NCBI RefSeq assembly: GCF_000975035.1 | Contig: NZ_BBRA01000001.1 | Span: 949,184 to 1,013,183 of the forward strand | DNA: 64,000 bases | Source: Demequina flava | GTDB lineage: Bacteria > Actinomycetota > Actinomycetes > Actinomycetales > Demequinaceae | Reading direction: 5' to 3' | Shown here: piece after piece, positions 18,552 to 60,604 of the stretch | Layout: every line of letters starts with the position of its first letter | How positions within the stretch are numbered: position 1 is the stretch's first letter | Notes under the pieces: model-generated | Told to the model about the DNA's origin: nothing | Seen by the model: only the letters and a program-made list of their open reading frames with translations | Database searches by the model: none | Made by a program: the position numbers and the translations under genes

Positions 18552-18558
18552 GGTGCCC

Positions 18559-19155
18559 ATGTATGACGGCGCAGTGCAGGATCTGATCGACGAGCTGGGG
18601 CACCTTCCCGGCGTGGGCCCCAAGAGCGCCCAGCGCATTGCGTTCTATCTCTTGGCTGCGGACGGTGCCGATGTGAAGCGCCTCGCGGACTCCATCACGA
18701 CCGTTAAAGAAAAGGTGCGCTTCTGTGACACCTGCGGCAACGTCGCTGAGTCCGAGCAATGCCGCATCTGCGCAGACCCTCGTCGCGCCGAAGACCTGTT
18801 GTGCGTCGTTGAGGAGCCCAAGGACGTGGTCGTCATTGAGCGCACCCGCGAATACCGGGGCCGCTATCACGTGCTTGGCGGGGCAATCGATCCGATGAAT
18901 GGTGTGGGCCCGGATGATCTGCGCATCCGTGAACTGCTGACTCGCCTGAGTGACGGTGCGGTGCAGGAGATCATCATCGCGACCGACCCCAACATCGAGG
19001 GCGAAGCAACGGCGACCTACCTCACGCGGATGCTGGCGCCCATGGGCATCAAGGTGTCGCGTCTGGCCTCCGGTCTGCCTGTCGGCGGCGACCTGGAGTA
19101 CGCCGACGAGGTCACCCTCGGCCGAGCCTTCGAAGGCCGCCGCACGGTCTCCTAA
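18559..19155 (+). CDS. recR: Recombination mediator RecR
   Basis: A 198-residue protein, the usual RecR length. The helix-hairpin-helix [14 protein letters not shown] is at residues 14-27. The zinc finger [16 protein letters not shown] is at about 57-72, and the Toprim domain ([29 protein letters not shown]) follows. It works with RecF/RecO to load RecA at gaps. An upstream in-frame GTG (18553) is less likely than the ATG at 18559, which matches the family N-terminus ([14 protein letters not shown]). Confidence 0.95.
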
Positions 19156-19190
19156 CCCGCCACACCCACCCGTCCCTGCCCCCCGCTTCC

Positions 19191-19396
19191 CCTGGCCGTA
19201 CATACACGGCGGGATTCCGGACTTACGGAGCTCACCGCCGTACTTTCTCGACGGTCTGCGGCCGGCGCGACGACAGCATCGGCCCTCCGCATGGCCCCCG
19301 GGCACGCGAAAGGCTCCCATGCCCTCCCGAAACCGTCGAAAACCGACGGCCAGGAGCGCGCAGGGGCCGATTCCCCGCCGAGTATGTACGGCCAGG
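19191..19396. repeat. 206-bp imperfect inverted repeat between recR and tetR
   Basis: The 363-bp gap after recR contains no gene. Its core is a large palindrome: the outer arms at 19191-19214 and 19373-19396 match at 15 consecutive positions, then 7 of the next 8. Inner arms around 19236-19252 and 19331-19348 also pair, through the TCGACGGT core and its complement. One copy of the iterated GCATCGGCC motif is in the centre (19276-19284). It could be a MITE-like element, a structured RNA or a large terminator for recR. No terminal direct repeats are obvious. Confidence 0.65.
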
Positions 19397-19476
19397 CGGG
19401 AGGGCGCTGCGTTCGACGATCACGTGACCTTTCAGGCGTGTTGCCGGCTTAGGTCTCAACCACCGTGACATAGTGA

Positions 19477-19489
19477 GTAGACCGACTAC
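19477..19489. promoter_or_regulatory. Candidate TetR operator
   Basis: GTAG-ACCGA-CTAC, a 13-bp inverted repeat, lies 30-42 bp upstream of the TetR gene at 19519, the usual place for autoregulation by this family. Confidence 0.45.
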
Positions 19490-19518
19490 ATAGGCGTACC
19501 CGCACCCGAGGAGACACC

Positions 19519-20061
19519 ATGCCCCGCAACCCGTCCGATAAGCGCGAGCGCCTCACAGCCGCCGCTATCCGCCTCGCCCGCACGCAGGGGCTCGAGGCGA
19601 CCACCATCGCCGCGATCGCCGCTGAAGCGGACGTTCCGTCGGGAAGCGTCTACTACTACTTCAAGACCAAGGACGATGTGGCATCGGCCATCGTTGACGG
19701 GATTGCCGCAGCGCTAGCGAGCCAGGGCGCAGACCACGCCAACGGGTCCGATGCTCGCGACGCCCTCACAGCCTTCCTGTCGTCATACCTCGACGACACC
19801 GACACCACCGTCCAGTACGGCACGGTGCTGTCGGCTGCGGCACGGGTGGGGTCGGGCGCCGCGCACGCGCAGGTCTTGGGATGGCTCGCCGAGCGCTTCG
19901 AGGACCTCGGGTTCGCCGCCTCCGCCGCGTCCGCCAGGGCCCAGCACCTGCTCGCTGGAGTCGAAGGCGGGGCTGCGCTGGCATCGGCCCTGGGCGATGC
20001 CCAACCGCTCGAGCGCGAGGTCGCGCACCTCACTCGCTGGGTGGCCAACGCGAAGGCCTGA
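19519..20061 (+). CDS. TetR-family transcriptional regulator
   Basis: A 180-residue regulator with an N-terminal HTH ([35 protein letters not shown], residues about 25-60) and a short Ala-rich C-terminal ligand domain. AGGAG precedes the ATG. Two copies of the iterated motif lie in the coding region (19681, 19981), read as Ala-Ser-Ala. No obvious target gene adjoins it; the neighbour downstream is lysC. Probably autoregulated through the palindrome at 19477-19489. Confidence 0.86.
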
Positions 20062-22486: not shown

Positions 22487-22508
22487 ACCCTCAAAACCAC
22501 GTCTTCAC

Positions 22509-22551
22509 AGCATCGGCCCTTATCCCTCGCGGGGTGAGGGCCGATGCTTTT
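22509..22551 (+). terminator. Rho-independent terminator of lysC-asd built from the iterated motif
   Basis: AGCATCGGCCCT (22509-22520) and AGGGCCGATGCT (22537-22548) form 12-bp arms followed by TTTT. Each arm holds the genome-iterated 9-mer. It also separates asd from the convergent ROK gene. Confidence 0.88.
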
Positions 22552-26505: not shown

Positions 26506-26527
26506 TTGCATCGCCTTGAGCGCCACA

Positions 26528-26577
26528 ATGGAGCAGGGGCCGCCACTTTCGAGAGAAGGTGACGGCCCCTGCTCCAT
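26528..26577. terminator. Hairpin between convergent xylB and a membrane-protein gene
   Basis: Perfect 15-bp arms (26528-26542 and 26563-26577) in the 93-bp gap between convergent genes. It can terminate on both strands, although no long T-run follows. Confidence 0.75.
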
Positions 26578-26598
26578 GTCACGAGGGCGTCTTGGGTC

Positions 26599-26982
26599 TT
26601 AGCCCCGTGGCGGCTCGTACAAACTCCGCTCGGCGAACGCCGAGGCGTCGGGCCGCCCGTCGTCTTCGGCGGCGTCTACCTCGTCAACCGCCCCATCGGA
26701 GCCCGCACCGTCCGTATCTGCCCCGGGGAGACGCGGCCCCAGCACGTTGATCACGATTGCAGCGCCGACGAGCGCCGCGGCGACGTAGAGCGGGATCTGG
26801 ACGACCGCGTAGAGCGCAGCGTGGACCGCCGTCACCCATCCGGGAATGCTCCCGAATATCTCGTCGGTCAGCCTCGAGTTGGTGAACGCGTTGAGGAGCG
26901 CATTCTGCGCAACGGCAGCAACCACGCTGACAACAACCAGCCCCCCGGCCCACCACAGGCATTTCTTCGCAGCCTGTTCCAT
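26599..26982 (-). CDS. Small membrane protein of unknown function
   Basis: A 127-residue protein with two hydrophobic segments (residues about 10-30 and 48-80) and an acidic, charged C-terminal tail (SDGAVDEVDAAEDDG). The ATG at 26982 has GGGGAGG upstream; an in-frame extension to 27330 runs across the tRNA and is not credible. It is downstream of tRNA-Pro, whose terminator separates them. The family is not recognised. Confidence 0.72.
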   Translation of the reverse strand: MEQAAKKCLWWAGGLVVVSVVAAVAQNALLNAFTNSRLTDEIFGSIPGWVTAVHAALYAVVQIPLYVAAALVGAAIVINVLGPRLPGADTDGAGSDGAVDEVDAAEDDGRPDASAFAERSLYEPPRG

Positions 26983-27056
26983 CGTTCCTCCCCTATGAGT
27001 TGTGGCACGCCACTTCACTGTAAGGGACGTGAACAACAGCGCACTGCGGGAGGGGG

Positions 27057-27103
27057 AAAACAGAAGGGCCGATGCCGGGGTCACCCGGGCATCGGCCCTT
27101 CTG
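27057..27103 (-). terminator. Terminator of tRNA-Pro built from the iterated motif
   Basis: On the minus strand, paired arms (27061-27080 and 27084-27103) contain the iterated 9-mer in each half and are followed by CTGTTTTCC. The hairpin lies 4 nt after the tRNA-Pro 3' end. Confidence 0.85.
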
Positions 27104-27106
27104 CAT

Positions 27107-27183
<77 letters not shown>

Positions 27184-27224
27184 AAATTCAGCCGTGCCAG
27201 GATACCTGATGGCTGGCGTGCGGC

Positions 27225-60115: not shown

Positions 60116-60118
60116 GGC

Positions 60119-60604
60119 TCAGGCTGCTGCTCGTTCCCGATCGAGGAGCGACCGCTTGACCTCAACTCCCCACGCGAATCCGGTCATTGCGCCGGACGCT
60201 CCGGTCACTCGGTGGCACGGGACAAACAACGCGACCGGGTTGGCTCCGCACGCGGCCCCAACGGCCCGGCTCGCCTTCGGGTTGCCCAGCGCTGCGGCAA
60301 GCTCGCCGTAGGTCCGGGTCTGGCCGGCGGGAATCTCGCGCAACGCGTCCCACACCGCGGCCCTGAACTCGGTTCCCGGCGCCGCAATCGGCACTGCCAT
60401 CGCGGGCCTGGGGTCGCCGTCGTAATAGGCCACCACGGCATCGGCCGCAGTCACGTCGCCACGTACGCCCGGCCCCCCGTCGAGGCGCGACCGGGCCGCG
60501 AGCGCCGCGGGACCCTGGGTCCACCCGGCGGCGACCACGGCTCCCTCATCTTCGATCACGACGAACGGTCCGTCCGGGGTGTCGAAGGTGTCATGAACGC
60601 GCAT
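60119..60604 (-). CDS. ogt: Methylated-DNA-protein-cysteine methyltransferase
   Basis: A 161-residue suicide enzyme that removes O6-methylguanine. The acceptor Cys is in VALFVPCHRVTGASG (about 128-142). FRAAVWDALREIPAGQTRTYGELAAALGNPKASRAVGAACGANP is the DNA-binding helix-turn-helix region. It overlaps the upstream Ada-AlkA gene by 14 bp, so the two act as one repair unit. Confidence 0.95.
   Translation of the reverse strand: MRVHDTFDTPDGPFVVIEDEGAVVAAGWTQGPAALAARSRLDGGPGVRGDVTAADAVVAYYDGDPRPAMAVPIAAPGTEFRAAVWDALREIPAGQTRTYGELAAALGNPKASRAVGAACGANPVALFVPCHRVTGASGAMTGFAWGVEVKRSLLDRERAAA

Follow-up and report, generated by a model that had tools for sequence, protein, structure and literature searches.

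The 206 bp palindrome at 19191-19396, between recR and a TetR-family gene of Demequina flava, consists of two facing inverted copies of a dispersed unit and is not a single-occurrence feature. Most copies of this unit lie just after a stop codon, and many recur at orthologous genes of related species, which suggests that it is the putative binding site of a factor that marks or ends transcripts. The window analysed here is a 64,000 nucleotide stretch of the 2.55 Mb D. flava assembly (G000). In the window, recR (18553..19155, plus strand; assigned by Pfam RecR/Toprim matches and the ORF listing) carries the left unit at its 3′ end. Box 1 of this unit (19191..19213, plus strand) lies 35 bp past the recR stop codon and matches a 53-copy motif exactly, and box 2 (19233..19255, plus strand), a degenerate copy recognised from a position profile and the unit alignment, follows exactly 42 bp after box 1. 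The right unit faces the left unit from the minus strand, with a second exact box 1 at 19374..19396 and its box 2 placed 42 bp inside at 19332..19354 (row L067:813-888 of alignment A1). A copy of GGGCCGATGCTG, a second over-represented genome-wide motif, sits between both units (19274..19285, minus strand). The TetR-family gene (19519..20061, plus strand; Pfam TetR_N) lies downstream, and a minus-strand gene is found in its place in D. globuliformis and in a further Demequina genome, G014.

The first-pass annotation had described an imperfect palindrome of 206 bp after recR whose outer arms agree at 22 of 23 positions. Its coordinates proved exact, with 19191-19213 and 19374-19396 forming an inverted pair identical at 22/23 positions. 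The statement that inner arms also pair holds loosely, as 19233-19255 and 19332-19354 are the two copies of the degenerate box 2. The same annotation stated that no other gene-free stretch exceeds 300 bp, which was not borne out, as further gaps of this length remain (e.g. 26506-27224 and 60116-60590) according to a codon-usage gene caller that may miss genes. Folding of the 206 nt as a single strand, which had been proposed as a check, gave −115.5 kcal/mol for the plus strand (z = −7.5) and −130.6 kcal/mol for the minus strand (z = −8.1), with 0/200 shuffles as good on either strand. The predicted fold within the outer stem is a multiloop of local hairpins, and in the gap 3′ of recR the best ungapped inverted repeat has a score of 20, where 20 shuffles reached at most 10. 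A chance palindrome is ruled out by the folding z-scores together with the 53 genomic copies. The palindrome reaches its size of 206 bp because two separate units face each other behind two convergent genes.

Each unit comprises a T-tract, a 23 bp box 1 (CCTGGCCGTACATACNCGGCGGG) and a weaker box 2 exactly 42 bp further on. CCTGGCCGTACATACNCGGCGGG occurs in 53 copies in D. flava at three or fewer mismatches, 40 of them exact, and the reversed control gave none. A BLAST search of the recR region against its own genome, also proposed in the first-pass annotation, returned 86 matches at E ≤ 0.001, a figure in which many repeats are counted twice, once per strand; apart from the 231 bp query itself these matches are partial and reach in from one end. 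In the aligned copies the T-tract lies just before box 1, T-rich bases follow it, and past +65 there is no clear common signal. All 53 units carry the core C of box 2 at +48; as box 1 was the sole criterion by which the units were chosen, selection does not account for the constant 42 bp spacing. The same step is kept in three-box arrays, and 42 bp would correspond to four helical turns. One such array, with 42 bp steps and a facing unit, is found between RmuC- and LytB-matching genes in both D. flava and D. globuliformis (L060 and L118). Closely similar sequence was also noted downstream of two units on different contigs (L052 and the 640955 copy of L047), seemingly marking paralogous convergent genes with a common gene end.

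Units are placed non-randomly with respect to genes, whose positions were again taken from the simple codon-usage caller, which may miss genes. A gene running in the same direction lies upstream of 44 of the 53 units in D. flava, 38 of them within 60 bp (median 25 bp), and of 24 of the 30 units in D. globuliformis, 19 of them within 60 bp; the orientation bias is significant in both genomes (binomial against 0.5, 6e-7 and 7e-4, respectively). By context, the D. flava units divide into 28 with convergent neighbours, 15 running along two same-direction genes, 6 placed against two such genes, 1 with divergent neighbours and 3 without a called neighbour; those contrary to the usual orientation are either genuine or gene-caller errors. 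All units except one (L050-606) fall outside called genes. Facing pairs arise where each of two convergent genes has its own unit, and 22 of the 53 units belong to facing groups within 2 kb. The 13 convergent gaps called in the window are all free of units (with the recR pair now falling in a same-direction gap), and the unit is therefore not a general terminator.

The genes that carry units are varied and many are housekeeping genes, including those for RecR, the gyrase A C-terminus, GMP synthase, adenylosuccinate synthetase, LytB and RmuC. No functional theme was seen in Pfam matches for 43 of 50 upstream-gene references; these 43 include the TetR gene of the window, and the remaining seven all run against their unit. 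Facing units do not appear to enclose a cargo: six enclosed genes were scanned, of which four gave ordinary family matches, one had no family match and one was restriction-endonuclease-like below the curated cut-off. A second DUF3048 gene was observed between facing units in D. flava (L065), at a site where D. globuliformis (L121) has one DUF3048 gene and units only ~200 bp apart.

The first-pass annotation had left the choice between a non-autonomous mobile element and a structured RNA. The palindrome is indeed one member of a many-copy family, and both interpretations turned out to be weak. Descent from a miniature inverted-repeat transposable element (MITE), with the units as ends or relics of a non-autonomous element, would agree with the high copy number and with the three inverted pairs in D. 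flava that span 195-206 bp. We nevertheless regard it as very improbable and largely refuted already: the interiors do not match between copies, as the partial BLAST matches show; target duplication was found by eye in 0/7 facing pairs; 31/53 units lack a facing partner within 2 kb; Y1 transposases of the type discussed below were not found in any of 41 Demequina genomes; and many units occupy orthologous positions across species. Searches of plasmids, phages and viral contigs did not find the element, and an origin from any of these is unsupported.

A sequence-only model of the unit was searched against 44 Demequina genomes and recovered 53 units in D. flava, 31 in D. globuliformis NBRC 106266 (G036), 21 in Demequina sp. 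B12 (G065) and 13 in G014; a further Demequina, G023, gave two matches and four genomes, G061 and G008 among them, gave one weak match each, and stricter filters lose some weak matches. No match was obtained in 35/44 genomes, including G029 and G015, and the unit family is thus dispensable. Sites were counted as orthologous by a fixed rule, namely that a D. flava unit lies on the same side of the orthologous gene. This rule was satisfied by 26/30 units of D. globuliformis (against 23 distinct D. flava units), 14/21 of Demequina sp. B12, 7/12 of G014 and 0/2 of G023. The comparison of orthologous intergenic regions that had been proposed for the recR palindrome showed this site to be common to D. 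flava, D. globuliformis and G014.

Comparison of orthologous places with other places showed that box 1 is no more similar to its D. flava counterparts at the former than at the latter, with identities of 0.92/0.92 in D. globuliformis, 0.87/0.87 in Demequina sp. B12 and 0.83/0.82 in G014. Spacer identities were near background (0.46/0.38, 0.40/0.38 and 0.35/0.37, respectively), and flanks were slightly more alike at orthologous places (0.62-0.65 against 0.58-0.59). The slightly higher likeness of orthologous spacers and of flanks (0.64/0.59) in D. globuliformis counts against the explanation that we favour below. Each species has its own changes in box 1: position 8 is A in 17/30 D. globuliformis copies and in 0/53 of D. 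flava, position 10 is G in 14/21 Demequina sp. B12 copies and in 1/53, and position 6 is G in 12/12 G014 copies and in 0/53. The equivalent position of box 2 in G014, position 48, is likewise G in 12/12 copies against 0/53, whereas the corresponding positions in D. globuliformis (8 and 50) and Demequina sp. B12 (10 and 52) show only partial joint change. Homogenisation by copying would need 23-base tracts to be copied with the 19-base spacer spared, and a drifting shared reader would be the simpler account.

The changes in G014 also bear on whether the unit acts as RNA or as DNA. The main rival to a DNA site is an RNA-level 3′-end element, in which the transcribed unit would fold into a hairpin (CCC-GCCG / CGGC-GGG, its loop almost invariant) with TTT behind it and would either terminate transcription in an unusual way or stabilise the mRNA, possibly with an RNA-binding protein attached; we consider this possible but doubtful. 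It fits the orientation and post-stop location of the units, the T-rich bases directly after box 1, the pairing of 96.9% of cells of the box 1 hairpin in alignment A1 (82 rows, 80 of them from D. flava and D. globuliformis) and the few units in which box 1 caps a long stem. Covariation, however, is lacking: RNAalifold on the 82 units gave six pairs, none with a double change, and a covariation term of approximately zero. A two-hairpin structure had double changes at 2/13 pairs, a value as high in 161/500 shuffles, with 89.4% of cells paired against 89.1% in shuffles (72/500 as high) and a covariation score reached by 24/500 shuffles. In G014 base 6 cannot form a pair with the G opposite it in the stem of box 1, and the same holds for base 48 in box 2, such that both box hairpins lose a central stem pair in 12/12 copies without compensation. 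These changes favour reading of the sequence itself, probably as double-stranded DNA. The box 1 loop is moreover as conserved as the stem, its last base excepted, no Rfam match was obtained for 19100-19550 at E ≤ 1, and an intrinsic-terminator scan of 19191-19396 found no pattern.

In having a hairpin-capable sequence after the stop codon, followed by a few T, the unit resembles intrinsic terminators; it differs from them in the constraint on 23 bases including the loop, in its species-wise change, in the broken G014 stem and in the presence of box 2 at a fixed 42 bp. Flanking sequence extends the box 1 stem at a score of at least 8 in 7/118 units (shuffle mean 1.7, maximum 7), a count also reached by the best of 500 shuffles, and the observed mean of 2.95 lies above all shuffles. 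With only these 7/118 units, long-stem extension was rejected as a general rule. Two orthologous cases keep the long stem with changed letters (L062/L119 and L059-/L131-), and these long stems look like an ordinary terminator hairpin.

The slot behind recR was followed across the genus. Both D. globuliformis and G014 have recR, then the facing pair, then a convergent gene that lies 15 bp and 39 bp, respectively, from the right box 1. The convergent genes of these two genomes are 62% identical, and that of D. globuliformis matches ABC2_membrane_2 above the cut-off. A search of D. flava with the convergent-gene protein, run without a positive control, gave no match, and a TetR gene stands in its place. 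The convergent partner thus seems to have been lost from D. flava and the right-hand unit orphaned, which would explain both the long gap around the palindrome and the single gene that it follows. The slot is filled differently in other genomes. Inverted GGCCGATGC pairs occupy it in G015, G023 and G061; the sequence of a further recR-slot palindrome gave 78 hits in G008, 79 in D. globuliformis and 2 in D. flava, and that of another gave 28 in G010, 34 in G019, 24 in G002, 8 in G022, 7 in G030, 3 in G059 and 0 in D. flava (both strands counted throughout). The latter two sequences (L097:2115-2192 and L098:1376-1488) represent further dispersed palindrome families, unrelated to the unit, in the recR slot of other Demequina species. 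Overall, the recR 3′ gap holds an ungapped inverted repeat scoring above all 20 shuffles in 13/30 species. The recR tree on which gains and losses could be placed is poorly resolved, with 5/27 inner branches well supported, and does not include Demequina sp. B12.

The unit also invites comparison with REP/BIME elements, of which GTAG- and CGTC-tagged REPs have been described (Di Nocera et al., 2013, PMC3733652). Both are short, palindrome-forming, dispersed extragenic repeats, often in facing dimers with variable spacers, and both lie downstream of genes, between convergent as well as same-direction genes (PMC3733652). A chromosome-structure element of this kind, bound by gyrase or a nucleoid protein and relieving supercoils between convergent genes, would account for the dispersed, extragenic and partly facing arrangement of the units, and the REP description (PMC3733652) is matched by the 28/53 units with convergent neighbours and the 15 that run along same-direction genes. 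We nonetheless judge it distinctly unlikely. The RAYT-type transposase (Y1_Tnp, PF01797) was found in 0/41 Demequina genomes by a search whose controls were positive in 5/14 known genomes; the strict orientation and the fixed 42 bp two-box layout are absent from the REP description as available (PMC3733652); and at most 29/53 units lie between convergent genes. The two direct boxes 42 bp apart, the preferred orientation to the stop codon and the species-wise sequence change at orthologous positions likewise set the unit apart. Box 1 of D. flava contains neither GTAG nor CGTC; GTAG occurs inside many boxes of Demequina sp. B12 and G014, and CGTC inside approximately half of D. flava box 2 copies, not at an end. 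As the transposase test failed, and the orientation and phasing differ, we have not classed the unit as a REP/BIME. The main text of PMC3733652 contains no words beginning actino-, mycobacter- or streptomyc-. Literature searches on Demequina repeats, palindromes and intergenic regions, actinobacterial REP, intergenic terminators and bidirectional terminator repeat families did not show the element among the titles of the matches listed.

A separate genome-wide motif was noted alongside the unit. GGGCCGATGCTG has 225 exact copies in D. flava against 1 for the reversed control, and its core GGGCCGATGC has 656 against 16; a strong excess of GGGCCGATGC is seen in many of 41 Demequina genomes, though not in every one. 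Copies lie on either strand, within genes as well as between them, with 37/57 intergenic in a 135 kb sample biased to gene ends, and the motif resembles an uptake signal or some other kind of genome-wide motif, although one of the uptake-signal type is not known to occur in actinobacteria. Inverted GGGCCGATGC pairs form terminator-like palindromes between convergent genes at 22508-22549 and 27066-27098. In Neisseria, pairs of uptake sequences serve as terminators, and GGGCCGATGC of D. flava resembles them in that facing copies form palindromes in some gaps. The unit shares with these pairs a dispersed short motif and a gene-end palindrome where two copies face, and differs from the Neisserial uptake sequence in being long and present in 53 copies, all but one outside called genes.

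The explanation that we tentatively prefer, though its probability falls somewhat short of even, is that the units are paired gene 3′-end sites, one per convergent gene, that would be recognised by a sequence-specific trans-acting factor stopping, pausing or insulating transcription. The sites mostly sit just past the stop codon and point along the direction of transcription. The candidate factor would most likely be a double-stranded-DNA-binding protein that touches both boxes on one helix face, and it may stop, pause or insulate the transcription leaving the gene in one direction. The anatomy of the unit, its copy number, its orientation, its orthologous positions and the parallel change of the two boxes in G014 are observed, and the factor, its binding to DNA in preference to RNA and its effect on transcription are inferred from them. 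Several observations count against this explanation: the 13 unit-free convergent gaps of the window, the six D. flava units placed against two same-direction genes, the largely kept box 1 hairpin, the long stems of a few units and the 35/44 genomes with no match. Convergent genes with a unit each would give rise to a long palindrome, and in D. flava the site of the right-hand gene would have persisted after the apparent loss of that gene.

A parallel may exist among RNA polymerase I terminators, where the protein-binding box is repeated, as in the case of TTF-I and the Sal-box. Terminators of this kind with the roadblock protein Reb1/Nsi1 (PMC12366685) have an oriented site just past the transcribed region and a possible transcript hairpin, as does the unit. 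The combination of a T-rich stretch with a protein-binding box would be a further likeness; in the unit the orientation and T-tract are observed and the binding is putative. These terminators belong to eukaryotic rDNA and the unit to some 50 ordinary bacterial genes, such that the likeness is one of analogy only. A bolder version of the favoured explanation, which we consider unlikely, is that the unit is a bacterial counterpart of the polymerase I terminator: polar protein roadblocks, each with a T-tract and two boxes four helical turns apart, would stand behind approximately 50 chosen genes; in four Demequina species the recognition code and the putative protein that reads it would have drifted together, the sites themselves staying fixed; and other lineages would lack the system, some with other palindrome families in the slot.

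Dispersed bacterial palindromes are often taken for mobile elements or simple terminators. For the unit described here, the common positions, the preferred orientation, the 42 bp phasing and the within-species change of boxes in step point to a dedicated recognition factor at gene ends. Since three or more unrelated families of dispersed palindromes occupy the recR slot across the genus, gene-end elements appear to be replaceable, and the slot may serve as a natural experiment on how convergent genes are separated in bacteria.
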